A stretch of 64,000 nt of DNA from Megamonas hypermegale (lineage in GTDB: Bacteria > Bacillota > Negativicutes > Selenomonadales > Selenomonadaceae), in assembly GCF_900187035.1 (NCBI RefSeq), contig NZ_LT906446.1:1426001-1490000 (forward strand), given 5' to 3'. Below the pieces are notes generated by a model, which made no database searches, was not told the DNA's origin, and worked only from the letters and a program-made list of their open reading frames with translations. The stretch's first letter is position 1. Each line of letters starts with the position of its first letter. Positions 27,955 through 54,669 of this stretch are shown here, piece by piece. Made by a program: the position numbers and the translations under genes.

Positions 27955-29256
27955 ATGCATTTAAAACAATATTTTCAATTCAAAGAACGCAACACTAATT
28001 ATACTACTGAAATCATAGCTGGTATCACAACATTTTTAACTATGGCATATATTATCATCTTAAATCCTAGTGTATTAAGCAAAACAGGCATGGACTTCGA
28101 TGGTGTTTTTTTCGCCACAATCATAGCTTCTGTCGTCGGCTGTTTATTCATGGGAATATTTGCTAATTATCCCATAGCTATTGCGCCTAGTCTTGCAACG
28201 AATGCTTATTTTGCCTTCGTCGTGGTAATATCCATGGGAATTCCTTGGCAAGAAGCACTAGGAGCTGTTTTTATTTCTGCTCTCATTTTCTTGCTTTTAT
28301 CATTGACTTCATTTCGCCAAGCCGTCATCAATTCTATACCATCTTCTATGAAAGAAGGTATCAGCGCTGGTATTGGTTTATTTATAAGTTTTGTTGGTCT
28401 GCAAAATGCGCATATTATAGTCGCTTCACCGTCCACACTCGTAACTCTCGGTAATTTAACTGACCCTATCACTTATATGTCTCTTTTAGGGATATTTATC
28501 AGTGTTGTTTTGATTATAAATAATGTTCGTGGTGCCTTATTTCTAGGCATGATTATAATTTCTATTATTTCATTTTTCTTTGGATATATTTCATTGCCAG
28601 ATACAATTTTTAACACACCAGAGTTTGGCAATACTTTTATGCAAATGGATGTTATAGGTGCTATATCTCATAATTTATTCACTATTATTTTCACATTTTT
28701 CATCGTTACTTTATTTGATACTACCGGTACAATGCTTGGTATTGCTAAACAAGCAGGACTTATGAAAAATAATACATTTCCAAATGTCCAAAGTGCTTTT
28801 TTAGCAGACTCCATAGCTAGCCTTGTCGGTGCAATTTTCGGTACAAGTCCAACTTCGCCATATGTTGAATCTAGTTCAGGCGTTGCTAGTGGTGGCCGTA
28901 CTGGTTTTAGTAATATTATAGTAGCGTTGTTATTTATTTTAATGTTATTTGCCGCACCGATTGCTAAAGTACTAGCAGAAGTACCTGCTGTCACTGCTCC
29001 AGCTTTAATTATCGTCGGTTTTTATATGATGAGTAGTCTATCTCGCATAGATTGGAATGACATGCAAGAAGCATTCCCTGCTTTTCTGATATTTTTATTA
29101 ATGCCATTATCCTATAGTATTACTGATGCCGTAGGTATAGGTATTATTACTTATTGCTTAATAAAAATCTTTTGTGGCAAATTTAAACAAGTTCATCCTT
29201 TACTTTATGCATTTATGCTCTTGTTTATTATCCAATTTGTTGCTATACAAATCTAA
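27955..29256 (+). CDS. NCS2-family purine/xanthine permease (AzgA-like)
   Basis: Inner-membrane nucleobase:proton symporter of about 433 residues. The N-terminus YFQFKERNTNYTTEIIAGITTFLTMAYIIILNP is the hallmark of the AzgA/GhxP (adenine, guanine, hypoxanthine) branch. ATNAYFAF and the GTSPTSPYVESSSGVASGGRTG loop are conserved substrate-region motifs. I start at the ATG at 27955 (AGAAAGG upstream); the open frame begins 34 codons earlier. An extended -10 (TGG TATTAT, 27898-27906) and a short GAGAGAA hairpin lie upstream. I looked for a purine riboswitch and found none. Confidence 0.9.
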   Translation: MHLKQYFQFKERNTNYTTEIIAGITTFLTMAYIIILNPSVLSKTGMDFDGVFFATIIASVVGCLFMGIFANYPIAIAPSLATNAYFAFVVVISMGIPWQEALGAVFISALIFLLLSLTSFRQAVINSIPSSMKEGISAGIGLFISFVGLQNAHIIVASPSTLVTLGNLTDPITYMSLLGIFISVVLIINNVRGALFLGMIIISIISFFFGYISLPDTIFNTPEFGNTFMQMDVIGAISHNLFTIIFTFFIVTLFDTTGTMLGIAKQAGLMKNNTFPNVQSAFLADSIASLVGAIFGTSPTSPYVESSSGVASGGRTGFSNIIVALLFILMLFAAPIAKVLAEVPAVTAPALIIVGFYMMSSLSRIDWNDMQEAFPAFLIFLLMPLSYSITDAVGIGIITYCLIKIFCGKFKQVHPLLYAFMLLFIIQFVAIQI

Positions 29257-29287
29257 AATCAAAAACAAGGAGGTCTTCCATCTTTAT

Positions 29288-30097
29288 ATGTTTTTTCGTA
29301 AATACAAATATTTTTATGGTTCCTTAATTACTGCTGCTTGCCTGACTATGGCAACACCTTCTTTCGCAAGCATGACTCCAGCACAGCATAGTAATATCAC
29401 ACTTAAAGGATTGAGTCAACATCAACAGCATGATACTACTGCTGTAATAGCATTATCCACTACAACTTCTAAAAACAATACTCTTGACAACAAAGAAGCA
29501 ACTACCGGCAGTATTTCTGATAGAGTTGAAGCTATTTTACATGGTGAAAAACCATCTGCTCCCGTTTTCAATCCACCACCAGTAGACTACGGCAGTGATT
29601 CTATAATGGGCAATGCTATTGCAACACAAGAACAATGTGTTAAATATTTACTTGATGTAAATCCCAATCCACAAATCAGTGTTTCTCCTGAAGAATTAGT
29701 TCGCTACTACTATGAAGAAGCTGGTAAAGAAGGTATTCGCCCTGATGCGGCATTTGCACAAGCTCTTAAAGAAACAGGCTTCTTTAATTATGGTGGAACA
29801 GTTACACCAGACCAAAATAATTATTGTGGTTTAGGTACGACAAGTGCCACTGTAAAAGGTGCTTATTTTTCTTCCGCTCGCCTTGGCGTACGTGCTCATA
29901 TTCAACATTTACTTGCTTATAGTTCTGTCAGACCTCCTCGTGAAAATGTCGTAGACCCACGTTACTCATTAGTGCGCGCTGTCTATACCACTTCAACAAT
30001 CGATACGTGGCAGGGATTAAACGGTCGTTGGGCTGTTCCTGGCAACAACTACGGTCAAGAAATACTTCAAATTTTGGATAATATAACAAGAGAATAA
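29288..30097 (+). CDS. Exported glucosaminidase-domain peptidoglycan hydrolase
   Basis: About 270 residues: signal peptide (about 1-28), a Gln/His/Thr-rich linker, then a glucosaminidase (GH73-like) domain. The catalytic glutamate is in FAQALKETGFF, and YCGLGTTSATVKGAYF plus ARLGVRAHIQHLLAY follow, as in FlgJ/LytD-type enzymes, which hydrolyse GlcNAc-MurNAc bonds. The start is the ATG at 29288, 13 bases after AGGAGG, a long spacing. It begins 32 bases after the permease gene and may share its transcript. A terminator follows. Confidence 0.88.
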   Translation: MFFRKYKYFYGSLITAACLTMATPSFASMTPAQHSNITLKGLSQHQQHDTTAVIALSTTTSKNNTLDNKEATTGSISDRVEAILHGEKPSAPVFNPPPVDYGSDSIMGNAIATQEQCVKYLLDVNPNPQISVSPEELVRYYYEEAGKEGIRPDAAFAQALKETGFFNYGGTVTPDQNNYCGLGTTSATVKGAYFSSARLGVRAHIQHLLAYSSVRPPRENVVDPRYSLVRAVYTTSTIDTWQGLNGRWAVPGNNYGQEILQILDNITRE

Positions 30098-30108
30098 ATA
30101 AAATAAAA

Positions 30109-30140
30109 AGCAATAACTATTTAAACCTATAGTTATTGCT
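30109..30140. terminator. Bidirectional terminator
   Basis: AGCAATAACTAT and ATAGTTATTGCT with an eight-base loop and T7 on the plus strand. It ends both the glucosaminidase gene and the long minus-strand run that finishes at 30178. Confidence 0.8.
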
Positions 30141-30177
30141 TTTTTTATACCAATTTACAACAATTATTTTATATTTT

Positions 30178-30687
30178 TTAATTAAAAATTACTATCTGCC
30201 TTATAATTCCATCAGAATCTACAGCAAACTGCATAATATTAGAACCACTATTATACTCATAATAGCTACATTTATCTATTGGAAATACCGCCATATCTTT
30301 CTTTATAGCACTTCCTTTTCCATATAATTTCTTTACTTCACTAAAATTCATACCTACTGATAAACCACTCGGTGTAGATAATCCTTTTTCCCGACAAGTA
30401 ACGCTATATACAATTCTATTAAAATTTCCTTTTGTTCCCGCTACAACTTTAAATAAATTATTTCCATTAACATATTCATATATTAATGATTCTCCTGTTA
30501 TCCAATCGCCTTCCCCATAATATGATTTATTCGGCAAACCATATACTTGCTCTACATAATCTAAAGAACTTCCCATTGTAATACCACCTATAACCATATC
30601 ACTCTGTGGAATAGATGCAAAACTTGTTGCCATACATATGAATAAAAACAATATTGTTATCATTGTAGATTTTAATATTTTAGACAT
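30178..30687 (-). CDS. Exported protein with two BamE/SmpA-like repeats
   Basis: 169 residues: signal peptide (about 1-25) followed by two copies of a unit of the form G-hydrophobic-x-x-G-x-S/N-hydrophobic-x-x-V-x-x-x-Y-G (GGITMGSSLDYVEQVYGLP and LSVGMNFSEVKKLYGKG), then aromatic strands. This unit recalls the small SmpA/BamE-type fold, but assignment is by pattern only. The same unit occurs in the 612-residue zinc-ribbon protein of this run and in the exported proteins at 52-54 kb. AAGGAG precedes the ATG. It is the last gene of the nine-gene run. Function unknown. Confidence 0.75.
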   Translation of the reverse strand: MSKILKSTMITILFLFICMATSFASIPQSDMVIGGITMGSSLDYVEQVYGLPNKSYYGEGDWITGESLIYEYVNGNNLFKVVAGTKGNFNRIVYSVTCREKGLSTPSGLSVGMNFSEVKKLYGKGSAIKKDMAVFPIDKCSYYEYNSGSNIMQFAVDSDGIIRQIVIFN

Positions 30688-30708
30688 AGAACTAGACTCC
30701 TTATAATT

Positions 30709-31266
30709 CTAATATTGTAATGGATCCGGTCCATATTGATTTGGTCCCTCTGTTCCTTTAGCAAAAAGTAAATATAACGCAAATATTATATCAATAACAG
30801 GAATAACTAATATGAAATAAAACCATCCTGATTTATTTAAATCATGACAACGTTGTATCGTTAACATTATATTTGCAACACAACAAGCTATTATTAAAGG
30901 TATTCCAATTATAGCCAATATACCTGTAAAACATATTCCCATAGCAAAAAAGCAAACTACACCTAACCCCAAAGAATATAAAAAATATGGTAATCGATTG
31001 ATACGTCCCTTACTACTAAAAATACTCTGTCGTATTACCTGTACATTAATATTTTGCCTATTTATATTATTACTATTAGAAATCATTTGTTCATTTTCTG
31101 CTCTTGTAGCTATCGTTGTATTATTGGCAGATTTTATATCTACAATTTCATTTTGGTTAGTAGTAACATTATTTAACTCGTCTTCTATCTTTGCTCCACA
31201 GTTTCCACAAAATCTTGCATTTGTTTCTAATGAATTTCCACAATTAGGACAAAATCTATTTGACAT
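30709..31266 (-). CDS. Zinc-ribbon DUF805 membrane protein
   Basis: About 185 residues. An N-terminal zinc ribbon (CPNCG...CGNCG, four cysteines within 25 residues) is followed by a polar linker (25-75) and a DUF805 membrane domain with about three helices, including the family motif RCHDLNKSGWFYFILVIP and the ending GPNQYGPDP. The ATG at 31266 fits the AAAGG site better than the one at 31272. DUF805 has no known biochemical role. It lies 27 bases after the GH3 gene, in the same probable operon. Confidence 0.85.
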   Translation of the reverse strand: MSNRFCPNCGNSLETNARFCGNCGAKIEDELNNVTTNQNEIVDIKSANNTTIATRAENEQMISNSNNINRQNINVQVIRQSIFSSKGRINRLPYFLYSLGLGVVCFFAMGICFTGILAIIGIPLIIACCVANIMLTIQRCHDLNKSGWFYFILVIPVIDIIFALYLLFAKGTEGPNQYGPDPLQY

Positions 31267-31293
31267 AAACATACTACCTTTCTTTAAAATACA

Positions 31294-32454
31294 TTATTGA
31301 TACAAGTGTAATAATTTTGCTTTAACAATTCGTTTTACAGATTCATCTATGCGCTGTTGGCTAATCTCACCATTATCAACAGCATCTAATAATCCAAGAT
31401 AAACATCTTGTTCATGTTGATATTCATGGCATACAAGCACGATATCCGCACCAGCTTTTACGGCATTTACCCCGACTGTTTTAAAATCGTTATGATTTGC
31501 CACTGCTCCCATTTCCATATCATCTGTAATGATTATACCTTTGTATCCTAATTCATTGCGCAATAAATCAGTCATAATTTTAGACGACAAGCTTGCAGGA
31601 TATTCTTCATCAAGCGCAGGATAATTCAAATGCGATACTAAAATAAAATAATCTTCCGGTTTATTCTCATTGATGATTGTTTTAAATGGTAAAATATCTT
31701 CCGCCATTAATACTTCTTTAGATGCATTAATACTGGAACTTTCCACATGAGAATCAACTTGACCTTTACCTATACCAGGAAAATGCTTCAAACTGTATAT
31801 GATATTTTCTTGTTGATAACCTGTAGTAGCTGCTTTTACAAAATTTATTACTGTATTTACATCAGTACTGTATGAACGATTATCATTAGAACCAACATCA
31901 GCAACTGGAGCAAAATTCACATTAATTCCCATTTCTTTAAGTGATTTAGCTGTTTTTATAGCCCATGTTTTAGCTTGTTCAGTATCACCCGTTGCACCAA
32001 TTTCTTTTTGTGATGGTGGTGGTGTTAATTTTTCTGCCATACGCACCACATCGCCCCCTTCTTCATCTACACCGATGAACAAAGGAACTTTTTCATTTGA
32101 TTGAGTTTGTAAATCTGATGTTAATTGTTTTACTTGCTCAGGACTTTCCATATTCCTATCAAATAAAATAACTCCACCCATATGAAATTGATGTAACATA
32201 TATAAACTATCATCATCAACTTTTGTACCTTGAATGCCTATCATCACCATCTGTCCAATCTTTTCGGTCTTAGACATAGAAGCAACTATTTTATCTACTT
32301 TTTCATCAATAGTTAAATTCTGTTGAGCAATCGGTGTTTCTTCTTGCGCTGATTTACTTTCTTCGGCATTGCTAAAAATATTTTTATTATTTAACAATAT
32401 ACCTAAAATTATAATTGCAATTACTATAACAGTGATAATTATTTTTTTACGCAT
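31294..32454 (-). CDS. Membrane-anchored GH3 beta-N-acetylhexosaminidase (NagZ-like)
   Basis: 386 residues: one N-terminal membrane helix (about 4-22), linker, then a single GH3 domain. The catalytic aspartate is in IITDDMEMGAV, and VDEEGGDVVRM and LKHFPGIGKGQVDSH are the other family motifs; the histidine of DSH is the expected acid/base. The usual KHFPGHG reads KHFPGIG here, a variant also known in the family. The likely role is removal of terminal GlcNAc from muropeptides outside the inner membrane. GAAAGGA precedes the ATG. It is 60 bases after the zinc-ribbon gene, so membership of the same operon is probable but not certain. Confidence 0.87.
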   Translation of the reverse strand: MRKKIIITVIVIAIIILGILLNNKNIFSNAEESKSAQEETPIAQQNLTIDEKVDKIVASMSKTEKIGQMVMIGIQGTKVDDDSLYMLHQFHMGGVILFDRNMESPEQVKQLTSDLQTQSNEKVPLFIGVDEEGGDVVRMAEKLTPPPSQKEIGATGDTEQAKTWAIKTAKSLKEMGINVNFAPVADVGSNDNRSYSTDVNTVINFVKAATTGYQQENIIYSLKHFPGIGKGQVDSHVESSSINASKEVLMAEDILPFKTIINENKPEDYFILVSHLNYPALDEEYPASLSSKIMTDLLRNELGYKGIIITDDMEMGAVANHNDFKTVGVNAVKAGADIVLVCHEYQHEQDVYLGLLDAVDNGEISQQRIDESVKRIVKAKLLHLYQ

Positions 32455-32514
32455 GAATCTATAAATTCCTTTCTTTTTTGTTAAAGGATAAAACTATTAA
32501 AATAAAATTAATTA

Positions 32515-34353
32515 TTATCTAGACATAATACGTTCGCCTTGTTTTTTAGCAGACATATCTACAATATGCCAGCTACCTGTTTTCTTACTTAAAAGTGCTG
32601 TACAAGCAAAAGTCTGTTCTTTAATACTATTACCATTGTAACTATCACGTGCCGTCAATGTATATGAAAGTGCTATTTCATCCCCACTATTAGATGTTAC
32701 TTGTACATTAGAAATACTATCCGATAATGTTGTTTTATATCCATCAGCATAATCATTTAAACTTCCCATATGTGTTTGCATATCATCTGATAACACATTA
32801 TATGCTGCTCTCATATCATGTCTAGTAATTGCTGCATAATAACTATTAAGTGCTTGTACTGCTTCATTTGCACTTGCCATATTGGTATTTTTTTCAGTAG
32901 ACGACTTATTTGAATTTGTATCACTTGATTTTGTATCCGTATTTTCTTCTTCTGGTATACGAACACTAATATAACTTACTTGATTATTTGATTTACTTAT
33001 CGCAAAACGAAGTATACCATTCTTATCATTATTTGCGGCAAAAGTATATTCATACAATACTAAATCATCATAATCCATCTTATTATAATTATCACCATAT
33101 TTATTAAAAACATCTTCTAAAGATGAACCCTGATGTATGCCACGTTTTGTAGCCACAGCAGAACTATTCGATACAAGCGCATCTATTTTTCCATCTTTTA
33201 TACCAACTTGAATATCACTATAATTATAAAATTTATAAATTCCTTTTTCATCAATACTTGTTTCTTTACCTAAAATTTCATGCATTTGGTCAATAGAATA
33301 ACCTAATTCTAATCCACCTAATGATAAATCTGAATCTACTGATGGAACTTCTTTCTTATCTTTAGATGTCGTTAAACTATTAGAAATATTTGATGATACA
33401 TTATTTGATGATTTATCATCACCACCTATTACATAAAAACCGATTAATACAAATACAACAACTATTACACCTAAAATAACACCACTTAATGTACTTCCTA
33501 AAAATTTTTTAGTACTTGTATTATTAGATTGATTTTGCAATGGCGGATTTATTTGTTCTATTTTAGATATATTTTCCGAATTTGAAAGTGTATTTGGTAT
33601 TTCATTACTAACTTGATTATTTTTTATATATGATTTAGGTTCTGCCTGGCTTCCATCATCCGGTCGTTGTTCACCACAATAAAAACAAAAATTTTTATCA
33701 TTTGTTCTCCCACAAGAAGGACAAATCCATTTTTCACTTTTTTCTAATTTTGCTGGACGTTTTTTTCCACAAACACTACAAAAATTTTTATTATTTACCT
33801 TTCCACAAGAGCAAGTCCATACTTCATTTTTTTCTTGTTCTTGTTGATTCAAATCAGATATTTTCTCTTTTTCATCATTTAATTTAATATGTTCTGCAAC
33901 AGGTTCTTTTTTCTCAATAGGTTTTTTTTCAGTTTCAACCGTTTCTATTTTTGCTTGAGAAATCTCATTTTCTATAGATTTAGCAGTTTCTTTCTGATTT
34001 ATCTCTATTTTTTCTTTTGGTTTATCCCATTCAAGTGCATAAATAAAAGCATCAATTATTTTCTGAATAGGTTTTTCCTGCATATTATTTTGACGTAAAA
34101 TTTCTCTTGCTTTATTTTTAGCTTCATCTTTAGCTTTATCTGTATCCTCTATACTAGCTTTTAAAAATAATTCACCGATGTTATTTTGCAAAGCTTTTTG
34201 AATAAGTGATAAATCTCTGCGATATTTCCCAGAAACTTTATTATCAAGTTGATTATATAAACTATCTCTGCTACTTAATAAATTTATATCTTTTGCTAAA
34301 AACTCTTTTAATATTTCTTGTACAGAATTTTCAACATCATTATTTTCTTTCAT
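32515..34353 (-). CDS. Zinc-ribbon, single-helix membrane protein with exported repeat domains
   Basis: About 612 residues. Order: helical charged region (1-180, Lys/Glu-rich), two zinc ribbons (about 187-235; CSCGKVNNKNFCSVCG and CPSCGRTNDKNFCFYCG), polar linker, one membrane helix (about 290-310), then an outside part with two BamE/SmpA-like units (GGLELGYSIDQMHEILGK and IHQGSSLEDVFNKYGD), a Ser/Thr-rich linker and a C-terminal NTF2-like domain (about 500-605, ALNSYYAAITRHDMRAAYNVL). Start chosen at 34353 with AAGGGA upstream. It probably links a cytoplasmic zinc-ribbon side to an envelope side. It ends the core of the tubulin/actin-like gene set. No function is assigned. Confidence 0.8.
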   Translation of the reverse strand: MKENNDVENSVQEILKEFLAKDINLLSSRDSLYNQLDNKVSGKYRRDLSLIQKALQNNIGELFLKASIEDTDKAKDEAKNKAREILRQNNMQEKPIQKIIDAFIYALEWDKPKEKIEINQKETAKSIENEISQAKIETVETEKKPIEKKEPVAEHIKLNDEKEKISDLNQQEQEKNEVWTCSCGKVNNKNFCSVCGKKRPAKLEKSEKWICPSCGRTNDKNFCFYCGEQRPDDGSQAEPKSYIKNNQVSNEIPNTLSNSENISKIEQINPPLQNQSNNTSTKKFLGSTLSGVILGVIVVVFVLIGFYVIGGDDKSSNNVSSNISNSLTTSKDKKEVPSVDSDLSLGGLELGYSIDQMHEILGKETSIDEKGIYKFYNYSDIQVGIKDGKIDALVSNSSAVATKRGIHQGSSLEDVFNKYGDNYNKMDYDDLVLYEYTFAANNDKNGILRFAISKSNNQVSYISVRIPEEENTDTKSSDTNSNKSSTEKNTNMASANEAVQALNSYYAAITRHDMRAAYNVLSDDMQTHMGSLNDYADGYKTTLSDSISNVQVTSNSGDEIALSYTLTARDSYNGNSIKEQTFACTALLSKKTGSWHIVDMSAKKQGERIMSR

Positions 34354-34379
34354 ATAAAATCCCTTCATCCAATAACTTT

Positions 34380-35417
34380 TTACTGTTTACGTAATTCAAG
34401 TTTTCCTTGTTCTTCTAATTTCCAATTTCCATTTAAATAACTAAAAAAGGCTGGTTTTATTACTTTAATATATTTATATGCGCCTTCATTTTTATAATCA
34501 GAGTTAAATGCTTCTTTCATTCCAGCCATTTCATGTAATTGATTTTCATAAGTAATATTAAATCTAGGTACTACAGCATACATATTATCTTTCATAAATG
34601 TTGCCCAATATACACCATCAGAACCACTATCTTTAAATGTAGGTTCACTGTATGATTCTCTTATATCAGACAATTCATCTATACGTTTTTCATAATTATT
34701 GCAAGTAAATGTTCTTATATTAAAATCTTGTTCAAAAGTTTTACGTTTTTGTTTTGCTTCATATCCAGAAAATCTATATAAATTATTATATTTATTTACA
34801 AAATCCATATATTTCATTTTTAATTCTTTAAATTCGTCTTCTTGTTCTTTTTTACTTTGTTTTAGTTCAAATTCTTTTTGAACTAAATTCATATTCTGAT
34901 TTTGTAAAGTTTCATTTGCATCATTTCTACCCAAAAATTCATTATTTGTCTTATAATCAAATATCTCTTTTGTCGGTTTATTTATAGTTGTTACAGATAT
35001 AGTTTTTGTCTTATTTTTTTCATTTTCAAAAGTTTCTATACATCTTTCTAATTTATCTATTTTTCCTTCCAATTGCCTAATTTTATCATTTACAATTCTA
35101 TTATCATTTGCTCTTTGATTTAATAAAAATATCATACCTAAAATAATGAACAGACATATACCTAATAAAATATATATCCATAAATCTAAACTTATTCCTA
35201 ATATATCATTTACTTGTAATAGAATTTTATCAGCTGTTTGTTGTGTCCTACTAGCCAAATCAAGTGCATTATTAACTTTTTCATTGATAATGTTTATATC
35301 ATCTACACTTTCTATCTCGCCATTAGCAGCATAGGCAATTCTCGAAAGAATTGCCCATGGCACTAATGTCATAAATAAATTATATAAACATTTTTTTATT
35401 ATCTTATTTATGTTCAC
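34380..35417 (-). CDS. Membrane-anchored coiled-coil protein of the tubulin/actin-like cluster
   Basis: 345 residues, family not recognised. It has an N-terminal signal-like helix (about 12-31, ending AYAANGE), a short helical segment, a second membrane helix (about 76-98, IYILLGICLFIILGMIFLL), a coiled coil (about 105-135) with Lys/Glu heptads and more predicted coil near 180-215. The C-terminal 110 residues look globular, with tryptophan and aromatic residues. The start is a GTG inside the end of the upstream ATPase gene (14-base overlap, GGAGATG upstream), so the two proteins are probably made in a coupled way. It is a possible membrane anchor or adaptor for the ATPase. Confidence 0.75.
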   Translation of the reverse strand: MNINKIIKKCLYNLFMTLVPWAILSRIAYAANGEIESVDDINIINEKVNNALDLASRTQQTADKILLQVNDILGISLDLWIYILLGICLFIILGMIFLLNQRANDNRIVNDKIRQLEGKIDKLERCIETFENEKNKTKTISVTTINKPTKEIFDYKTNNEFLGRNDANETLQNQNMNLVQKEFELKQSKKEQEDEFKELKMKYMDFVNKYNNLYRFSGYEAKQKRKTFEQDFNIRTFTCNNYEKRIDELSDIRESYSEPTFKDSGSDGVYWATFMKDNMYAVVPRFNITYENQLHEMAGMKEAFNSDYKNEGAYKYIKVIKPAFFSYLNGNWKLEEQGKLELRKQ

Positions 35418-38400
35418 TAGTTAACATCTCCATTAATTTTTTCAAACCTATAATAAATATTGGCTCAACATGAATTTCTTTAACTTTTTTACCCTTTTCT
35501 GATACATAATAACTATTGATACGTTTTTTTATTTCATTTCTTTGTACATCGTCTATTTTTATACCATTTAGCCATATGCTTTTGCGATTTTCATTAAATG
35601 TCTTAACAAAATTATCTAATTCATTAACATCATCAATTGCAATACCTGCTGAAATATCTTTAGCTGATACAAAATCTCTATCAGATTTTACAGTATCACT
35701 TATTTTAAAACCAGCACCAGATAAAACAGAATTTAAAACATATTCATCTTCTGTTTCTCCAAATATTTTTTGATACATTTTTTCTTCATTAAACATCGAT
35801 TGTACTGGTCTATCTTCTAACATTCCCATAGCAACTTCAATTTTAGGTTTATCACTCAAATAAATATTAAAATCTACATCTGATTGTAAACCACTAGCAC
35901 TTAAAATAATGTTCTTCAAAACTTTCAAACGAACGCTTTTCCTATCATATGAACCGCCACCTGTTATCCAATAAAGAATTCTAGCGCCATTACCACCAAT
36001 ATATATATCAGGTACATGACCTTCTACATATATATTATTATCACTTAAATATTTTAAAATTTTACCTACATAATATAAAATGCCAGCTAAAGCGAATTGA
36101 ATTTGTTCTAGCATTTTCTTAATATCTTCTTTGCCGGTAATATTTGCTAATTCTATTAAATACTGGTCACTATTTGCTTTCATATCACTATCAAACATCA
36201 TCGTATCTATATCTGATATATTTGCATACGTTTCGCTTTTTTTCAGTACTTCCATTTTTTCTTTATAATATCCACTTCTCATTATGCAATTAAATAAATA
36301 ACGACCTGCAAATAATATCGATGTATGATAAACAATATGACCCGGCTGCCCACTAATGATTGAAATATCTGTTGTACCTGCACCAATATCAAGACAAATT
36401 GCACCATCACTAAAATTGGTATCTGAATTATTCAGTTTATTAAAATACAATGCAGTTGCCACACTTTCAAGTTCTGTATCTAATTCATCAACATCAGGTT
36501 TAAAACCAGTATCTTCACAAGCACATTCTATTGCTTTTATGCACATTTTACGAAAAGACTCTCTTTCTTCATCTGAAAAAGCTGTCGGATAAGAAAAACT
36601 CCATCTTAACTTAGTCACTCCAGCTATTGCAGCTTCTACTGTCGATTGCATACAAATCTGTTCAAGATAAGCAGTTGCTTTATATCTACCAGTATCATCT
36701 GCTTGCCATTTTAAATTATAATCAATATGATTTTTTTCTTTACGTATCATATAATCTAAAACTAAAGCATTCATTCTAAATATATGTCCATCTTGTAATG
36801 GTTTTATTTCTTCATGTACCTTTTTAGTATTAAGCAAATGAAAAATACTAAAAAATGAACCATCTGTTCCAAGTGTTGTTGACGGAATAAATCTAAGAAA
36901 AGTATTATTTCTAAGTGGTCCACTATTAGTAACTTGAAATAAATGCGAATTAAAATTTAATGGTTTTGGTAATTGATTATTATCGCGATAATAAATCATT
37001 GTACTAGAAGTACCAAAATCTATACCTATTCTCCAATTACTTAAATCATCAGCTTCTACCATTTTAGGTTTATCAAGTAATAATAAACCTGTCTCAATCA
37101 TTTGCGTACGAACATTGCCACGGACAGAAGCATTTACACTACATAATAATACTTCAGGATAGCCATTCATTCTTAATGTATATTGATTAGAAATAGAATT
37201 TTCTGTTATACCTTCAATGATATTTTTATTATATTTCCATGGCATTACATAAAAGAAATCTTTTCCTAAATCCTTTTTATTGTTCAGTGCTTCACTATTT
37301 TCATAATACAAATAGTACCTATTCCAATTTTCTCTGCGAATATTTGGCCATATTTCTATTGCAGGTATATTTGTCTGTAAATAAATTAAATCTTTCTTTG
37401 GATATGCTTTAACAAAATCAAAATCATGACCTTCACCATATACTCCAGACAAAGGAAATGCAAAGTGTATTAAATAATTATTTCCATCATCTTCAATAGA
37501 TAAACGATCTGCAATATCTTCTGGTGTAAAAAATTCTAATAATTCTTTTCGAATTGGTAATATAGCACCTAAATCTTCACTAGCTAACAATTCTTCACCA
37601 CGAATTTTAATAGTACCTTTTAGAGCATCTCCACCTGGATCCATAACTGCCATATATTCAGTAAAAAACATTTCTGGATTATAATACTTAGCATTATTTA
37701 AATTTATATTTCCAATAGATGTTCCATTATCATATACATCTATATCGTCTATATCATTTGCAGTTATACCTGGCCAAACAATAATTTGTGTTGTTGGTAA
37801 ATTATATTCATTTGCAAAATCATGTAACATCTTTGTAGATACAAGTAAAATATCTTGTTCTGGTTTTCTTGAATCCGAAACAATCAAACGCACTGCACTA
37901 TCTTTCGCTGTAGCTTCTTTTGCTTTAACTGCACTATCAAGATATTTAAATATACCAGCATGAATTTTTAACATATTATTTTTATATTGGAAATTATTCA
38001 TATTAGATATCTGATAACTTTGACACGCTTTTTTAGCATCATCAGCAAATTTTCTAATACAATCTAATATATTTAAAAATCTTTCATTATCTCTATTATC
38101 TTTTACATGTGCATTTATATTATCTGCTAATTTATTTAACCAACTATACAATGCACATATTTCTTCTTTTGTTAAATATGGTATAGGATCCATTAAATAT
38201 AAACCATCACTACTCCATGGTTTTGGTAAGTTACCATTAAACATACTTACATAATCAGCTGCTGATGCAACTAACGTCATTGGTGAAGTAAGACCAATCG
38301 GTATATCTTTATAAAAAATAATATATAAAATATCCCAATTCGTATCATCACTTATATTTCTTTCTTGTGGTTTTAATATATTTAATATACGTTCTATATT

Positions 38401-38763
38401 GCCATTACCTTGCCCAATTCGAACTTCTTCCACTCGTAAATTTAAATGTTTTATATCATTTAATGCAAACATAGCTAAAATACTACGCCATTCACCAACA
38501 ATTCTTTCATGAAAACCTTTTACAAATTGTTGCTCGGTTCCTTCCTTATCAAAAAGAGCCATTTCAAATAACAACGGACGTGCCCAAACATCTGGAATAG
38601 AATCTATTGTTCCGATATCTTTTATCGAACCACTAACCGCAATACTTTTTATCAATGCATTTAAAAAATCATATTCTTTATCTTCCCAAACGCTAGTTTT
38701 ATCTGGTGTAACTGCAGAATTTTCTTTTAGTTTTGGTAACATTGGAAAATATTGATTTGCCAT
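35404..38763 (-). CDS. Giant protein with C-terminal actin/Hsp70-type ATPase domain
   Basis: 1119 residues. The C-terminal half shows the actin-superfamily motifs in order: PHOSPHATE-1 IGIDFGTSSTMIYYR near 580, a CONNECT-like LDTELESVATALYF near 765, PHOSPHATE-2 ICLDIGAGTTDIS near 788, and ADENOSINE IYIGGNGARIL near 920. There is no Hsp70 substrate-binding domain. The N-terminal 570 residues have no motif I recognise; they are mixed alpha/beta with no membrane helix. AAGGAG precedes the ATG. It starts 12 bases after the tubulin-like gene and overlaps the next gene. The general plan (large protein with Hsp70-like ATPase) is reminiscent of SrfB-type proteins, but I cannot claim homology. Function unknown; it is probably cytoplasmic. 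Confidence 0.85.
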   Translation of the reverse strand: MANQYFPMLPKLKENSAVTPDKTSVWEDKEYDFLNALIKSIAVSGSIKDIGTIDSIPDVWARPLLFEMALFDKEGTEQQFVKGFHERIVGEWRSILAMFALNDIKHLNLRVEEVRIGQGNGNIERILNILKPQERNISDDTNWDILYIIFYKDIPIGLTSPMTLVASAADYVSMFNGNLPKPWSSDGLYLMDPIPYLTKEEICALYSWLNKLADNINAHVKDNRDNERFLNILDCIRKFADDAKKACQSYQISNMNNFQYKNNMLKIHAGIFKYLDSAVKAKEATAKDSAVRLIVSDSRKPEQDILLVSTKMLHDFANEYNLPTTQIIVWPGITANDIDDIDVYDNGTSIGNINLNNAKYYNPEMFFTEYMAVMDPGGDALKGTIKIRGEELLASEDLGAILPIRKELLEFFTPEDIADRLSIEDDGNNYLIHFAFPLSGVYGEGHDFDFVKAYPKKDLIYLQTNIPAIEIWPNIRRENWNRYYLYYENSEALNNKKDLGKDFFYVMPWKYNKNIIEGITENSISNQYTLRMNGYPEVLLCSVNASVRGNVRTQMIETGLLLLDKPKMVEADDLSNWRIGIDFGTSSTMIYYRDNNQLPKPLNFNSHLFQVTNSGPLRNNTFLRFIPSTTLGTDGSFFSIFHLLNTKKVHEEIKPLQDGHIFRMNALVLDYMIRKEKNHIDYNLKWQADDTGRYKATAYLEQICMQSTVEAAIAGVTKLRWSFSYPTAFSDEERESFRKMCIKAIECACEDTGFKPDVDELDTELESVATALYFNKLNNSDTNFSDGAICLDIGAGTTDISIISGQPGHIVYHTSILFAGRYLFNCIMRSGYYKEKMEVLKKSETYANISDIDTMMFDSDMKANSDQYLIELANITGKEDIKKMLEQIQFALAGILYYVGKILKYLSDNNIYVEGHVPDIYIGGNGARILYWITGGGSYDRKSVRLKVLKNIILSASGLQSDVDFNIYLSDKPKIEVAMGMLEDRPVQSMFNEEKMYQKIFGETEDEYVLNSVLSGAGFKISDTVKSDRDFVSAKDISAGIAIDDVNELDNFVKTFNENRKSIWLNGIKIDDVQRNEIKKRINSYYVSEKGKKVKEIHVEPIFIIGLKKLMEMLTSEHK

Positions 38764-38775
38764 TTTTTTATCTCC

Positions 38776-40251
38776 TTATCTTTTTTCACAACAAATATAA
38801 AGTGCGCGCAAAAATCGTCCAAATCCACTAGCATACTGATTTTCAGACGTACCTTCTGTCAAACGATACCATAATTCATTTATCGTTATATTTCCATTTT
38901 CATCATCTATACAGCTTTCAAACATAAATGGATTTATTTTTGCTGGCTGAACATCTACTATCACGCTTGGATTAATTAAATGAATTTCACGATTTTCCTT
39001 TTCTAATTGTTTTACCCAACTTATAAAGCACTCTGCATATTCTTCAAAGTTTTTTATTTCTAACATATCAACATTAGTATCTTCCAAATAATCAATAAAC
39101 CAAGGATATTGATACTTTTTCAATTTACCGGCAGATAAATCGCGTAATACAGGTTTTATCAAATGAACATAAGCAAATATGAATCGCGTAAATTGAGCAA
39201 ACCGTTCTTTAATATTCACTACAATATCTTTACTGTTTGTATCTATTTCAACAATATCAGGAAAATCACTCCATTGAATTTTATTATCATCTGCATGAGT
39301 GATATATGAACATTTTTTTAATTGTTTACTCTGATAAAAATCAATTGCTGCCAAAGCTCCATAAAAATCAACAATATGAGCGTCATTTTCTTGACTTGAA
39401 GACCCAACACTAAATTTTTGTACTGGTGCTAATACATTATCTCCAATAAAATACATTGAATGATATATATTTTCTTCTTTATTTTTAGCTGCATAATATT
39501 TAAGTGCTGCTTGTGTACTAGTCAAAAAATTTTCAGATGAAGCATATATTTCATTTGAAGATATACTACTTTTATCTGGTGAAAAAGAAAAATACGGTAA
39601 TATTAAAGCTCCACCTATGAGTACTTTTTTCTCTTCATATAAATCCTTAAACATTCCTTGTAATAATTTAGCTATTGTTGGCATACCAGCAGCTCCAGTA
39701 CCACCAAAAACAGAACCAGCTAAGAATATTTTAGCTACGGAACCTGTCTTAGCGTCCTGATTTACAAGTGTTTCAAAACGCTTCCATGGTTCTTCATTAT
39801 TTCCATCACTATCAGTTGATACCTTTTTAGCCATTACTGCTGCACCAATTGATGGATGTCCTCTAAAACCTTCATTCAATAAAATAGAACGTTCTTTTTT
39901 AGTATATAAAACTTCATATAAATCACCTATCGGCGTACCTTTATATGCTTGATACGACATAACATCATCTAAACACTTATCATGTTCTGTAGGATTCCAG
40001 ACAAAAGGATTAGCTAATTCTACTTTATTTTTAAAAATAGGCATATCATTTCCTACTTCTAATTTTTGAAATATATTATAACAATGAATAGCAGCACTAC
40101 TTCTTGCCAAATTTCCATTTCCTGTATCTGGGTCAATTGCCATTACATAAAAATTTTCATCAGTTGGAAACATTCCTGCCACACATAAATGTGTTAATGA
40201 TTCCATTACTTTAGCACCAGAGCCACCAATAGATATAAAATAATAACTCAT
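38776..40251 (-). CDS. Tubulin-like GTPase (not FtsZ)
   Basis: 491 residues. Tubulin-fold features: N-terminal glycine loop ISIGGSGAKVMESL, an acidic strand after MAIDPD, and the G-box GSVFGGTGAAGMPTIAKLL near 175-190 (compare GGGTGxG). It is longer than FtsZ and lacks its C-terminal tail peptide, so it fits the broad tubulin-like group (Pfam Tubulin_2, from memory) rather than cell division. The C-terminal 200 residues are mainly helical and unique. The ATG overlaps the stop of the upstream membrane-protein gene by four bases. Pairing with an actin-type ATPase gene 12 bases downstream is the striking feature. Whether it polymerises is unknown. Confidence 0.82.
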   Translation of the reverse strand: MSYYFISIGGSGAKVMESLTHLCVAGMFPTDENFYVMAIDPDTGNGNLARSSAAIHCYNIFQKLEVGNDMPIFKNKVELANPFVWNPTEHDKCLDDVMSYQAYKGTPIGDLYEVLYTKKERSILLNEGFRGHPSIGAAVMAKKVSTDSDGNNEEPWKRFETLVNQDAKTGSVAKIFLAGSVFGGTGAAGMPTIAKLLQGMFKDLYEEKKVLIGGALILPYFSFSPDKSSISSNEIYASSENFLTSTQAALKYYAAKNKEENIYHSMYFIGDNVLAPVQKFSVGSSSQENDAHIVDFYGALAAIDFYQSKQLKKCSYITHADDNKIQWSDFPDIVEIDTNSKDIVVNIKERFAQFTRFIFAYVHLIKPVLRDLSAGKLKKYQYPWFIDYLEDTNVDMLEIKNFEEYAECFISWVKQLEKENREIHLINPSVIVDVQPAKINPFMFESCIDDENGNITINELWYRLTEGTSENQYASGFGRFLRALYICCEKR

Positions 40252-40751
40252 TTTGTTATTCCGCCTTTCATTTTACGTATTTTTATAGCTCCAATAGGAG
40301 TATATTTATAATTTGCCGGAGTAAACAATACACTGCACACGTAATAGCCGATAACCCCAAAAAATACAATAAATAATAAACAAATCGCAAAACTCATTGG
40401 CGATTTTGAATCTATAATTGAATAAATAAATGGTACAATAATGCATAAAAGTATATTAATAATACCAATCAAACACCAAAGACTACGACGACCAACAATT
40501 GTTGGATAAACAATTTTTATTACGAATCGCGTTAAAATATACCATAACAAAGTTAATAAACATGATAATATGCCCATAACTCGTACTAATCCACTATAAT
40601 GTTTTACCCATTCAGAATAATTTATTCCACCAGCTTTTAAGATTACAGATTTAGCTATTGGTGAACCAATAAAATAAACTATCAAACTAATAACAAAGAA
40701 AATTATTATAATACTAGCTATAGATACAATTGTCTTTGTATTTCTGTTCAT
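40248..40751 (-). CDS. Four-helix membrane protein of the tubulin/actin-like cluster
   Basis: 167 residues, family not recognised. Four membrane helices are predicted by eye (about 7-29, 55-72, 92-112, 120-142) with a basic C-terminal tail (KIRKMKGGITK) likely in the cytoplasm. GAGGATG precedes the ATG. The stop overlaps the tubulin-like start (ATGA-type junction), so translation is probably coupled, suggesting that this protein brings the tubulin-like protein to the membrane; that is inference. Confidence 0.75.
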   Translation of the reverse strand: MNRNTKTIVSIASIIIIFFVISLIVYFIGSPIAKSVILKAGGINYSEWVKHYSGLVRVMGILSCLLTLLWYILTRFVIKIVYPTIVGRRSLWCLIGIINILLCIIVPFIYSIIDSKSPMSFAICLLFIVFFGVIGYYVCSVLFTPANYKYTPIGAIKIRKMKGGITK

Positions 40752-40785
40752 AAAAACACATCCTCACAAATTTATTTATTTTATA

Positions 40786-42090
40786 TCACTTTGTTTGTAT
40801 TACTAAATTCATATTAACTAAAGATGGCTGAGCTGTAGATAACACTGAATCTTTAAGAGATTCTGCAATGTGTAAAAAGTTAACCGTTTTTGAACCATCA
40901 AATTGTCCCATGTTTACAGCACTACTATCCATATTCCATGCTCTTATCCAGTCCGGCAAAATAAGACCTGTATCTTCTGGTCTAATAGCTATATGAATTA
41001 AATTTATACTATTTGGTGTTAAGGTTTTTTCTCCTGTAAAATTAACAGAAACTAAATAATTATCTTGTTGAGATTCATCTGGCTTAAATATACATTTTAT
41101 ATCTCCAGATTGCTCACTTTCTTGCCATTGTCCATCTTTTAACACCCATACTTTTATATCAGGATTGAGTTTATTCATATCTAAATTACAACCATCAGTA
41201 GCTGGAGAATAATTAAAACTTGCTGTTAAAGATGAATTTTCATCTAAAGAATCAATATCATATTCTTTTAAAGTTTGATTTGGCAAAGATAATTGCTCAT
41301 CAGAAAAAATATTATTACTATCCTTTATTTCCATATTTGAAAGGTCTGCTGCTTTATCCATTAAATTTTCTGAGAATACTAGATATTGCACTTCATTTGT
41401 TTTTGCATATCTATTTTTCCAAAGTTGTATAAATTTCTTGACTTCACTATCTTGACCTAAAATAAACATATAAAATGGACGATATTTAGATGGATCATTT
41501 CCACTATCATAATCAAACTTAGCAGCATTTAATCCCACATCAAAGATTTCACCTTTAAATGGATTTTTTACACCAATAATAGCAACGGATAAATGCTGTG
41601 AAAAATATTTTTCCTTTAATTGTTTAGTTACATTGCTCCAATCAGAATCACTTTCAAATAAATCTGTAATAATAATTGATAAATGATTTGTATCAGCATT
41701 TTCTACAACATTATAGATAGCTGTAATAGTTTCATCATAACTTGCACCATCTGCAAATTTTCTATGTTCTCTACCTTCTAATGGTTTTATATCTTTCCCA
41801 AAACCATAAAATTTTATATTTCCCATTGAACTTCCAATATCATCTAAATCATCTGGTAAAGCTCGATATGCATTATCTTGAGCTATAGTAGTATAGCCTT
41901 TCATTGAATACGTAGCATCCCAATATACATCAATATCTGTTGTTTTATTCTCCCCTTGTTCCGAAGGAGCAAATACAATTGATGGTATTTCTGTAGAAGA
42001 TGTTTCATCTACAGCACATCCACTAAATATTGGTGTTAAAAATATACAACAAAAAAGATATAATATCACTTTTTTCATATTTTTTACCAT
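40786..42090 (-). CDS. VWA-like lipoprotein, first gene of the tubulin/actin-like cluster
   Basis: 434 residues. The signal peptide has a lipobox-like IFSGC with C25, so it is probably a lipoprotein. The following domain looks like a von Willebrand A fold: IDVYWDATYSMKGY carries a D58-x-T-x-S62 variant of the metal-site DxSxS, and a second acidic strand SIIITDLFESD has D144. The C-terminal 180 residues are beta-rich with no known motif. GGGAGG lies eight bases before the ATG. A 34-nt palindrome lies just upstream. VWA proteins often work with AAA or chaperone ATPases; here the partner could be the actin-type ATPase. Function unknown. Confidence 0.78.
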   Translation of the reverse strand: MVKNMKKVILYLFCCIFLTPIFSGCAVDETSSTEIPSIVFAPSEQGENKTTDIDVYWDATYSMKGYTTIAQDNAYRALPDDLDDIGSSMGNIKFYGFGKDIKPLEGREHRKFADGASYDETITAIYNVVENADTNHLSIIITDLFESDSDWSNVTKQLKEKYFSQHLSVAIIGVKNPFKGEIFDVGLNAAKFDYDSGNDPSKYRPFYMFILGQDSEVKKFIQLWKNRYAKTNEVQYLVFSENLMDKAADLSNMEIKDSNNIFSDEQLSLPNQTLKEYDIDSLDENSSLTASFNYSPATDGCNLDMNKLNPDIKVWVLKDGQWQESEQSGDIKCIFKPDESQQDNYLVSVNFTGEKTLTPNSINLIHIAIRPEDTGLILPDWIRAWNMDSSAVNMGQFDGSKTVNFLHIAESLKDSVLSTAQPSLVNMNLVIQTK

Positions 42091-42127
42091 AATTACAACC
42101 TCCCATAAAAAAATATATATAATTCAA

Positions 42128-42161
42128 AACTTCAACTAAATACTAGTATTTAGTTGAAGTT
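42128..42161. promoter_or_regulatory. Perfect 34-nt palindrome between the XRE gene and the VWA lipoprotein gene
   Basis: The arm AACTTCAACTAAATACT is followed immediately by its exact reverse complement, with no spacer. It begins 18 bases after the XRE stop and ends 37 bases before the lipoprotein start; the intervening minus-strand sequence is T-rich. It may be the XRE gene's terminator, an operator for the XRE protein, or both. The long perfect arms without a loop fit an operator better than an ordinary terminator. Confidence 0.6.
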
Positions 42162-42179
42162 ATAAAAATTTCTATAAAT

Positions 42180-42401
42180 TTATACATTTCTATCACTTAT
42201 TAAATAAGCTGCGTCTATAGATAGTTTTTCAGCAATTAAAAGTAAAACTTGTATACTAGGCATCTGCTTACCACATTCAATTTTACTCAAATATTGTGGT
42301 GAAATTCCTACCATATTCGCCAATTTAGTCTGGTCTATATCCTTTAATTGACGATAATATTTTATTTTAGCTCCTATTTGACGATATTTATTATTCAACA
42401 T
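42180..42401 (-). CDS. XRE-family small helix-turn-helix regulator (copy 1)
   Basis: 73 residues, essentially a lone HTH_3 domain: IGAKIKYYRQLKDIDQTKLA, then VGISPQYLSKIECGKQMPS with the recognition helix, then LLIAEKLSIDAAYLI. I use the ATG at 42401, which has AAAAGAG nearby; the frame runs eight codons further without a ribosome site. It resembles the second XRE gene at 43.1 kb (shared KIxYYRxLK, QQ/TKLA, QYLSKIExGK). It lies just upstream of the VWA lipoprotein gene on the same strand, so it probably regulates that run. Confidence 0.8.
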   Translation of the reverse strand: MLNNKYRQIGAKIKYYRQLKDIDQTKLANMVGISPQYLSKIECGKQMPSIQVLLLIAEKLSIDAAYLISDRNV

Positions 42402-43022
42402 ATAACTCTTTTCCCATTCCTTCATAAAAATAATAAATTATACAAAATATTATATCATTTGCATTAATAACATTTTCGTATAAATAGGCGTAATAATAAA
42501 CTTTATAGAACTACTACCATCTTTAATAATTTATTTTTTACAATAACCAGTAATTTTATCAAAATTCTTATAAAAACCCTCTAAAATAAATCCTATTCTT
42601 TACTATTTCTAATAAATTCATATACTATTAAAAAAATATATATTATTCTATCTGTAGTTCCATATGTTCACTATATTTAACGCAAAATATTTATACTTTT
42701 ATATTATCACCTTCCTTGCTATTTATAATTATTTTTTACTTTTATATTATTACCACCTTCTATATTTTTATATCCATATATTAATCTCATTAATTTAAAA
42801 TAATTTTTTAATTAATAGAAACCCTATCCCTTTATATCAAAAATCTTTTTATAATATTTTAAAAACCTATTATCAAATTATAACTACTAATTACTTATAT
42901 CACAATCAATAATAAAAATTTAATAATTATTCTTATATATGTTATAAAATTATTCATATAACATTCACTTACCTTTATTTTAGTTAAAATAAATATTCCA
43001 ATTTTATAATTTCAACAAAAAA
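42402..43022. other. AT-rich non-coding gap between the two XRE genes
   Basis: About 620 bases of very AT-rich sequence with no convincing open frame, RNA or terminator. It contains two related copies of ACTTTTATATTATNACC-type sequence (42695-42714 and 42738-42760, 43 bases apart), which on the minus strand read GAAGGTGATAAT and GAAGGTGGTAATAAT, like orphan ribosome sites. It could be decayed gene remnants. Confidence 0.4.
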
Positions 43023-43238
43023 CTATTCTTTTATTAAATCAATAAAATTAATTTCTAATACGACAGCAATTTTATGTATTAATCCTCTATTACAAAAACA
43101 TTTTCCATGTTCAATCTTAGATAAATATTGTCTAGTTACCCCTATTTCTTTGGCTAAATCTTGTTGATTTATTTCTTTTAAATTTCTATAATAAATAATT
43201 TTAGCTCCCGTTTTTTTTAATTCTTCCCTAATTTCCAT
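43023..43238 (-). CDS. XRE-family small helix-turn-helix regulator (copy 2)
   Basis: 71 residues: ELKKTGAKIIYYRNLKEINQQDLA, then IGVTRQYLSKIEHGKCFCN, then HKIAVVLEINFIDLI, a stand-alone HTH_3 domain. The ATG at 43238 is 12 bases after AGGAGG; the frame extends 16 codons further without a site. It is similar in size and sequence to the XRE gene 620 bases downstream, so the pair looks like a duplication. Both face the tubulin/actin-like run. Alternatively they are independent regulators of unknown genes. Confidence 0.78.
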   Translation of the reverse strand: MEIREELKKTGAKIIYYRNLKEINQQDLAKEIGVTRQYLSKIEHGKCFCNRGLIHKIAVVLEINFIDLIKE

Positions 43239-43585
43239 TAAAAATATTTTCCTCCTTTTATAAAATAAATATATACCTTTTATCAATAAAAATCATCATA
43301 TTTTATTAATAAATTTAAATATCTTTTTTATACATAATCATTATTATTTTATTCAAATATAAAACAATTAAAATTTTTAGTATAAATTTTTCATATATAT
43401 CATTTCATTTTCACTATTTTTTTAATTTATTCTTTTTATAAAATATACAATATAGTGTATGGAAGATTGATTTTTACTGTTTTTCTATTTGAAATTTGAT
43501 ATAATAAACATAAACTTTTAAGTTACAAAGATACAAAATTAAGTATATTTATATATAATCTATTTAAATGTTAGAAGGTGTTATT
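43239..43585. promoter_or_regulatory. AT-rich divergent region with extended -10 promoter for the UbiB-like gene
   Basis: There is no gene in this 347-base stretch. On the plus strand TGA TATAAT (43497-43505) is an extended -10 about 80 bases upstream of the kinase-like gene; no good -35 is visible. On the minus strand the AGGAGG of the XRE gene lies at its left edge. Confidence 0.5.
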
Positions 43586-52201: not shown

Positions 52202-52209
52202 TTTGAAAT

Positions 52210-54661: not shown

Positions 54662-54669
54662 TTTAAAAT

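Follow-up and report, generated by a model that had tools for sequence, protein, structure and literature searches.

Here, we analyzed a 64,000-nt stretch of the Megamonas hypermegale genome (one contig of 2.23 Mb), focusing on a locus that pairs genes for a predicted tubulin-fold protein and a predicted actin/Hsp70-fold protein. The whole stretch is referred to as the window, and coordinates are window positions. Nine open reading frames (ORFs), named here A (first) to I (last), run on the minus strand from position 42090 down to 30178 (Table 1). From I to A, their junctions measure 21, 21, 60, 11, -14, 12, -4, and 34 bases; C and D are 12 bases apart, E and D overlap by 14 bases, and C and B overlap by 4. 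An initial annotation, made from the DNA letters, had described nine tightly packed genes with gaps of at most 60 bases. This packing was confirmed, except that the end given for the group, 42401, falls inside an ORF of the helix-turn-helix (HTH) type HTH_3, which ends 89 bases upstream of A and would count as a tenth gene. This ORF and a second small HTH-like ORF have a 49-nt repeat, D3 (73%), in common. The hairpin that follows I is suggestive only as an operon terminator, since 4 terminator-like sites were found in this AT-rich region against 2.5 expected.

Table 1. Features of the locus and its flanks in window coordinates
Feature	Position	Strand	Description	Basis or remark
Whole removable block	30104..43471		borders are the ends of DNA similarity	absent at the same site in a sister species
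Flanking glucosaminidase gene	29174..30097		left of block	
Terminator-like hairpin	30105..30144	-	16 pairs (3 G-C), after I at operon end	
I	30178..30687	-	169 amino acids (aa), N-terminal hydrophobic helix	matched to no family
H	30709..31272	-	zinc ribbon plus DUF805 membrane protein	family scan
G	31294..32454	-	GH3 (NagZ-type) glycosidase, N-terminal hydrophobic helix	Glyco_hydro_3
F	32515..34368	-	two zinc ribbons, one transmembrane (TM) helix, outside CAP_assoc_N-like and NTF2-like parts (weak matches)	
E	34380..35417	-	one TM helix, charged stretch, C-terminal Ect domain (~34383-34754)	hydropathy, Ect comparison
D	35404..38763	-	1119 aa; predicted ASKHA ATPase domain at residues 575-985 (~35809-37041)	AlphaFold (AF2) model, MreB_Mbl
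C	38776..40251	-	491-aa predicted tubulin-fold protein; GTPase-type part in residues 1-350	AF2 model, Tubulin_2 profile
B	40248..40751	-	167-aa predicted four-helix membrane protein	hydropathy
A	40786..42090	-	434-aa predicted lipoprotein, VWA/MIDAS-type motif (DxTxS ... TD)	homologue near C in other loci
HTH_3-type regulator	42180..42425	-	upstream of A, in removable block	family scan
Second small HTH-like ORF	43023..43286	-	in removable block	ORF list; repeat D3 common to both HTH genes
Flanking ABC1-family gene	43568..45181		right of block	

Proteins C and D have predicted tubulin and actin/Hsp70 folds

The AlphaFold model of C (predicted local distance difference test [pLDDT], 89.1; predicted template modeling score [pTM], 0.92) aligned with CetZ1/FtsZ at Z 15.7 over 208 residues (root mean square deviation, 3.2) in the VIA structure comparison, in which all 50 listed matches belonged to the tubulin superfamily. 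In Foldseek, tubulins ranked at the top, with many dehydrogenase rows close behind. The window protein scored 25.3 bits against the Tubulin_2 profile (PF13809; cut-off, 27), and 43 of 44 aligned C members matched this family at E ≤ 0.01. A profile search of the PDB with C gave three matches, one of them CetZ and none below E 0.5. Residues G9, G10, and G12 and the run G183-G184-T185-G186 were invariant in the 44 C sequences; we take these glycine loops to be T1 and T4 (GGTG). Consistent with the initial label "tubulin-like," C has a predicted tubulin/FtsZ fold in which the tubulin-type GTPase loops are kept. The identification of C as an ordinary FtsZ was rejected, given that Tubulin_2 fits C better than the Tubulin profile does and that, besides C, two Tubulin-family proteins of the FtsZ type are encoded in the genome. 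An FtsZ with Tubulin and FtsZ_C domains lies within the window (15335 to 16507, plus strand) between a Na+/H+ antiporter gene and a ThiF-family gene, and a further Tubulin-family match of the genome was found at G000:C1:1150851-1151336.

For D, the AlphaFold model (pLDDT, 84.9; pTM, 0.78) bore out the earlier claim that the protein ends in an actin-type ATPase domain: residues 575 to 985 matched MreB at Z 20.0 (281 residues), DnaK at 19.3, and FtsA at 18.8. Z differences under 1 were treated as ties, and, with scores this close, an actin-like fold cannot be told apart from an Hsp70-like one; we therefore describe D as ending in a predicted actin/Hsp70 (ASKHA) fold. The window protein scored 28.4 bits against MreB_Mbl, over the cut-off of 27, and 23 of 39 D members matched this family at E ≤ 0.01. 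D carries the motifs DFGTSS, DIGAGTTD, and GGNG, presumably the phosphate-1, phosphate-2, and adenosine motifs, and D582, G584, E766, D792, G794, and D799 were invariant in the 39 sequences. Ahead of the ASKHA domain lies an N-terminal half of ~570 residues, on account of which D was rejected as a plain MreB or DnaK. SrfB (PF07520) was absent from the five families matched by any of the 39 D proteins at E ≤ 0.01, and an identification of D as SrfB was likewise discarded.

The A-B-C-D core recurs in several phyla

A search with C among species-representative genomes confirmed 573 stretches, of which 80 were kept for analysis. The named loci closest to C, among the matches listed, were selenomonad records. 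By record titles, we distinguished a home group of 30 loci (L071 to L098, L131, and L132: selenomonads, Veillonellaceae, Quinella, and Anaerovibrio) from the other 50, termed outside loci. A was scored as found if it lay, on either strand, in the interval from 4 kb upstream to 20 kb downstream of C, and loci ending at contig ends were included in the counts. The profiles for A to F were built from home-group sequences, and diverged A and B proteins may escape them. In some cases, a named and an unnamed locus represent identical DNA (e.g., L040/L073, L064/L089, and L056/L105), and the Ect and stator tallies given below double-count some of these.

Among the outside loci, D followed C within 400 bp in 48/50 and lay farther along the same locus in 2/50; A was found in 42/50, and B lay just upstream of C in 36/50. 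These loci derive from Cyanobacteria, Pelagibacteraceae (SAR11), Competibacteraceae, Roseomonas, several acidobacterial lineages, Nitrospirae, Poribacteria, Aminicenantes, Clostridiales, and Phascolarctobacterium; a Prevotella record in which C adjoins D adds Bacteroidota. By record titles, the C-D cassette spans seven or eight phyla, depending on the placement of Aminicenantes. In the two annotated records examined, D and most partners were labeled hypothetical. The initial expectation that all six genes A to F would be found together elsewhere held in part: the core A-B-C-D recurs as a unit in several phyla, and E and F are less constant.

Co-occurrence was examined in 380 genomes of the same class, in which C was detected in 55 (E ≤ 1e-3) and D in 56 (E ≤ 1e-20). 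Both were present in 54, C only in 1, D only in 2, and neither in 323, and the genomes with a single partner are incomplete (C only, G232, 59%; D only, G227, 60%, and G087, 81%). A long D match was recovered in 20/20 tested genomes with C, including 15/15 in which the C locus itself was without D; many genomes of one genus carry the two genes apart. Among close relatives, C was present in 3 of 60 genomes, the organism's own included. Since the gene set is conserved elsewhere, in both class co-occurrence and loci of other phyla, the grouping is more than chance, and we rejected a local chance association on the class co-occurrence and the 50-locus counts.

An 881- to 916-aa protein is encoded after three acidobacterial cassettes (L140:16733-19453, L143:11650-14400, and L149:14876-17521). 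The L140 protein, the one scanned of these three, adds a further ASKHA member to its locus (HSP70, 34.5 bits; weak SrfB).

Predicted envelope partners and the Ect domain

The initial annotation had called A a VWA-like lipoprotein. Across 35 homologues, the lipobox cysteine C25 was nearly invariant and the MIDAS-type residues D58, S62, and D143 were invariant, in keeping with this label. No Pfam VWA model matched the window protein, however, and the VWA label is therefore a motif reading; only one of the 35 A proteins reached a VWA profile, at E 0.011, and a PDB profile search with A gave 0 matches. Four hydrophobic helices were found in B by hydropathy, as first described. E has one TM helix, at residues ~81 to 99 by hydropathy, which agrees with the membrane half of its earlier label, membrane coiled-coil protein; the coiled-coil-like stretch and a signal-like N terminus were seen by eye only. 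F, initially described as a zinc-ribbon membrane protein with an outside NTF2-like end, has two CxxC ribbons and one TM helix (residues 296 to 314; hydropathy), whereas its matches to SnoaL_3/NTF2-type (17.2 bits) and CAP_assoc_N (23.0 bits) models both fell under the cut-off. As judged from sequence, then, A is a predicted lipoprotein and B, E, and F are predicted membrane proteins.

The last ~115 residues of E constitute the domain termed Ect, which was seen in 107 ORF products of 60 loci (some loci counted twice). No Pfam family matched more than one of 37 Ect members at E ≤ 0.1, and a PDB profile search with Ect returned one match, at E 0.36. We took 8 unlinked D loci, without C, from the 15 genomes with D apart from C. 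In 7 of these 8, Ect was fused to the C terminus of D, and in the eighth it was in the next gene; this fusion is the strongest indication that E and D function together. In cyanobacteria, Ect genes occur in arrays of up to four. In the loci L109 to L130, from Cyanobacteria, such arrays follow D, the other parts differ, and some proteins hold two or three Ect copies.

Of the remaining genes, G and H could be assigned clearly. G matched Glyco_hydro_3 at 265 bits and PRK05337 at 206.9 bits (cut-off, 207), and a GH3 gene was also nearby in L037, L040, L041, and L166. F homologues lie downstream of E in some home-group loci, and a DUF805 protein, as in H, is encoded by the second gene after D in the SAR11 locus L135. 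Over 22 residues, I resembled the outside part of F (E 0.002 in that single comparison), and a weak I homologue adjoins F in L041.

The block is gained or lost in one piece

In a sister species (G001), the genes that flank the block are only 201 bp apart and the site is empty; the same flanking genes are <2 kb apart in two genomes of the family (G276 and G003). Because the flanks are near-adjacent in these three genomes, ~13.4 kb comprising the nine genes and the two small HTH ORFs was gained or lost in one piece. G276 keeps a cassette of its own on a contig other than the one with these flanks. In 2-kb windows, the GC content of the block was ~0.22 to 0.31, below that of the left flank (0.32 to 0.36) and near that of the right flank (0.29 to 0.34). 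No integrase-sized unassigned ORF was seen, nor were there tRNA genes at the borders or clear repeats at the ends. On a mobilizable plasmid of Gloeothece, genes for A, B, C, D, and Ect are present; C alone bears a name ("tubulin-like doman-containing protein"). Genes for A, C, D, and Ect domains are likewise found on a plasmid of Picosynechococcus sp. PCC 73109, where an ORF of the size of B, missed by the B profile, separates A from C. A search of 50,697 phage records with one diverged query gave no match, and a phage module was rejected on that result. Five IMG/VR contigs called viral (L171 to L175) have C adjoining D, three of them with A; these contigs may be host or prophage DNA.

Elsewhere in the window, a tRNA-Arg(acg)/tRNA-Tyr(gta) pair occurs twice, ~2.5 kb apart (52124 to 52294 and 54584 to 54754). 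Two adjacent paralogues of ~550 aa (23788 to 25437 and 25500 to 27143) are paired in G001 as well (44 to 45% cross-identity).

MotA- and OmpA-type neighbors in relatives

In some relatives, a long-tailed protein of a MotA/ExbB cluster and an OmpA-type protein are encoded after or near D. Carriers include Poribacteria, one metagenome-assembled genome each of Nitrospirae, acidobacteria, and Clostridiales, Phascolarctobacterium, and a genome of the organism's own family (G022; L007). The MotA/ExbB cluster was present in 10/50 outside loci (E ≤ 1e-100) and the OmpA-type cluster in 9/50 (E ≤ 1e-60); most outside loci, the cyanobacterial ones above all, were without either. The genes scanned around the cassettes were a chosen set of 86, two from the window and 84 from the 135 downstream genes listed. 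OmpA-type neighbors scanned singly matched PADLOC ZorB models at E values down to 3e-19, and, by eye, the MotB-like helix aspartate was kept in 7/7 aligned OmpA-type proteins. The ZorA match covers the MotA part in L105 and L142 and is firm there; in L102 and L104, it covers mostly the helical tail, a part that LmuB and JetC models match as well, and Pfam finds no MotA in L104.

No PADLOC model for ZorA, ZorB, ZorC, ZorD, or ZorE matched the nine genes in the window; OmpA members of the organism's own genome were not searched. ZorC, ZorD, and ZorE were also not among the first 25 of 70 PADLOC families listed for the scanned neighbors.

Comparison with published systems

According to the initial annotation, the locus could be matched to no named system. 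For the exact gene set, our searches agreed with this, and no paper on the C-D pair was found in the open-licence literature, among the matches listed. Relatives by theme are nevertheless in print, namely the FtsZl1/VWA/OmpA systems of 2010 and the tubulin/vWA GTPase-centric systems of 2020. Adjacency of actin-fold and tubulin-fold genes also has a precedent, as ftsA and ftsZ are neighbors in many bacteria.

The accessible text on FtsZl1 systems describes VWA, GTPase, kinase, and OmpA partners (Makarova and Koonin 2010, PMC2875224). The type protein has 1051 aa, with an N-terminal FtsZ-like domain, an extended coiled coil, and a helical C-terminal domain; a VWA partner is found in most, not all, FtsZl1 operons, and a P-loop GTPase or protein kinase is frequent (PMC2875224). 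The VWA link is repeated in available parts of a 2015 paper (PMC5898192), and a 2023 phylogeny, in the sections at hand, separates Tubulin_2 proteins as FtsZ-like (PMC9871819). The locus resembles these systems, as far as the accessible text describes them, in its divergent tubulin fold matching Tubulin_2, its partner with VWA-type motifs, its membrane proteins, and, in some relatives, OmpA-type neighbors. It differs in the size of C, 491 aa with a longest modeled helix of 27 residues, compared with the 1051-aa coiled-coil type protein; four Tubulin_2 proteins over the cut-off likewise had frames of 1133 to 1197 aa. Nor did any of the nine genes give a credible P-loop GTPase or kinase match in Pfam or NCBIfam. 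Moreover, the dedicated predicted ASKHA partner D is found here, whereas five Tubulin_2 loci lacked D. The accessible text of PMC2875224 names no actin-fold partner of FtsZl1, and the associated families left unnamed there could include D.

GTPase-centric (GAP1-N2) neighborhoods, in the portions available, combine tubulin and vWA proteins with zinc-ribbon, TM, and NTF2-bearing proteins, and conflict roles are predicted for them; the tubulin and HSP70 themes are called non-overlapping (Kaur et al. 2020, PMC7159879). The locus shares with the systems described there a tubulin-fold protein, a protein with vWA-type motifs, and zinc-ribbon/TM/NTF2-like membrane proteins, HSP70 belonging to another theme of that class. 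In contrast, the defining GTPase and GAP1 were absent, as tested, from the operon and the organism's own genome. GAP1-N2 was found in 1/16 cassette genomes, on a contig other than that of the cassette, and DO-GTPase2 (PF19993, tested for the TRAFAC GTPase) in 3/23 (2 over the cut-off), none at the cassette. Both were absent from the organism's own genome, on which ground a GTPase-centric system of this type was rejected. A GAP1-N2/DO-GTPase2 locus, G382:C13:62242-68358 (in L188), lies on a contig other than that of the C-D cassette.

A further parallel is to cell division, in which FtsA, of the actin fold, attaches polymers of tubulin-fold FtsZ to the membrane (available text of PMC5832921). 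The likeness to our locus lies in adjacent genes for predicted actin-fold and tubulin-fold proteins. Differences are the extra ~570-residue N-terminal half of D, the lack of an FtsA match in the window D at E ≤ 0.01 (14/39 members match FtsA weakly), and the presence of two FtsZ-type proteins besides C in the genome. To our knowledge, VWA and Ect parts are foreign to cell division. A resemblance to Zorya lies in the ZorA/ZorB-model matches beside the cassette in some relatives (firm in L105 and L142), whereas the window operon has no ZorA/ZorB pair. Similarly, the second ASKHA protein in L140 matches SrfB weakly (24.6 bits; cut-off, 27.1), an echo of SrfABC, whereas SrfB lies outside the families matched by the D proteins themselves.

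Proposed function and alternatives

We put at roughly one half the probability that the block encodes an envelope-anchored, FtsA/FtsZ-like machine with two nucleoside triphosphatases (NTPases). The two-NTPase part is argued for by both folds being modeled, by the C-D pair being kept across phyla, by co-occurrence of C and D when unlinked, by the correlation of C and D distances (Spearman, 0.87; 39 taxa; 0/1000 permutations as high), by the retained nucleotide loops, and by the Ect-D fusion. The envelope link is suggested by the predicted lipoprotein and membrane parts and by MotA/OmpA-type neighbors in some relatives. The initial proposal of a single envelope-linked machine is, on these grounds, partly supported.

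In such a machine, A would sit outside the cell and bind a ligand, the cell wall, or a partner, acting as a sensor or anchor, and B, E, and F would pass its state inward. E would dock D at the membrane through Ect, and D would tether or remodel C in the way that FtsA acts on FtsZ. Assembly of C driven by GTP, together with ATP cycling of D, would construct or shift a structure beneath the membrane. In those relatives that have ZorA/ZorB-like proteins, this core may be fed by a proton-driven stator anchored to peptidoglycan. Local envelope or cell-wall organization, which the GH3 enzyme G fits, is the most likely job, with an infection response as the main alternative. More tentatively, and with somewhat less confidence than in the machine itself, we propose a new machine class, spread over seven or eight phyla, whose obligate partners would be a tubulin-fold GTPase and an actin/Hsp70-fold ATPase, both dedicated to it. 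Ect and membrane proteins would couple the two to a VWA-type lipoprotein outside the cell and, in some lineages, also to a ZorAB-like, proton-driven stator, giving a trans-envelope device with two cytoskeletal folds and an ion motor that acts outside division.

Several observations weigh against this two-NTPase machine. The FtsZ_C profile found no match in C, and D is split into two neighboring pieces in G206 and G210. Gene order is often broken in the home group, where D was adjacent in 9/30 loci, A near C in 7/30, and B upstream in 25/30. Three of the 15 split cases sit on short contigs (G226 and G239 end <2 kb after C, and the G194 contig is 5.4 kb). Part of the correlation between C and D distances would come from shared descent alone. 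D is missing from five Tubulin_2 loci, four over the cut-off and one weak, so a tubulin_2 protein can do without it. Finally, the only two MotA/ExbB proteins of the organism's own genome are small (frames of 216 and 230 aa) and encoded elsewhere, so the stator idea, as tested, does not apply there.

The strongest alternative, which we consider rather unlikely, is an anti-phage conflict system, a cousin of Zorya and of the GTPase-centric systems, in which A or the outside domains would sense attack, C and D would form a threshold switch, and the membrane parts would execute the response. Such a role would suit a ~13.4-kb block that is wholly present or absent, its GC content below that of the left flank (though near that of the right), the G276 cassette on a contig apart from the flanks, and the cassette on a mobilizable plasmid. 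It would also suit the ZorA/ZorB-model matches that adjoin the cassette in some other taxa and the conflict roles predicted for tubulin/vWA neighborhoods in the available text of Kaur et al. 2020 (PMC7159879). However, PADLOC models matched none of the nine proteins at E ≤ 1, family scans recognized no nuclease or toxin-like effector among them, and the organism's own genome lacks GAP1-N2 and DO-GTPase2. The block is flanked by genes for a permease, a glucosaminidase, and an ABC1 family member, and the many genomes of one genus that keep C and D unlinked would be unusual for a mobile defense cassette.

A secretion or surface-assembly machine, in which the NTPases would power the export or the movement of surface proteins and A would serve as a receptor, is improbable. 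It would account for the lipoprotein and membrane parts and for the OmpA/MotA-type neighbors of some relatives, and a reviewer suggested transport or signaling for FtsZl1 (accessible text of PMC2875224); nevertheless, family scans of the nine proteins recognized no channel, secretin, or dedicated substrate gene. That there is no machine at all, C and D acting separately and being neighbors through shared transfer only, is very improbable: the unlinked C and D of one genus and the outside loci where A (8/50) or B (14/50) was not found near C would fit, but C and D co-occur almost perfectly when unlinked, the order recurs in several phyla, and Ect is fused to D.

Outside FtsZ-FtsA, we know of no bacterial system that obliges tubulin-fold and actin-fold NTPases to work together. 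Conservation of the C-D pair extends to groups as far apart as SAR11, cyanobacteria, and rumen Negativicutes. If C and D do form one assembly, the two-NTPase machine would add a second bacterial instance of tubulin-actin coupling and would offer a handle on what the tubulin_2/VWA systems described in 2010 do. In addition, the ZorA/ZorB-type stator link seen in some relatives would join cytoskeletal folds to a proton motor.

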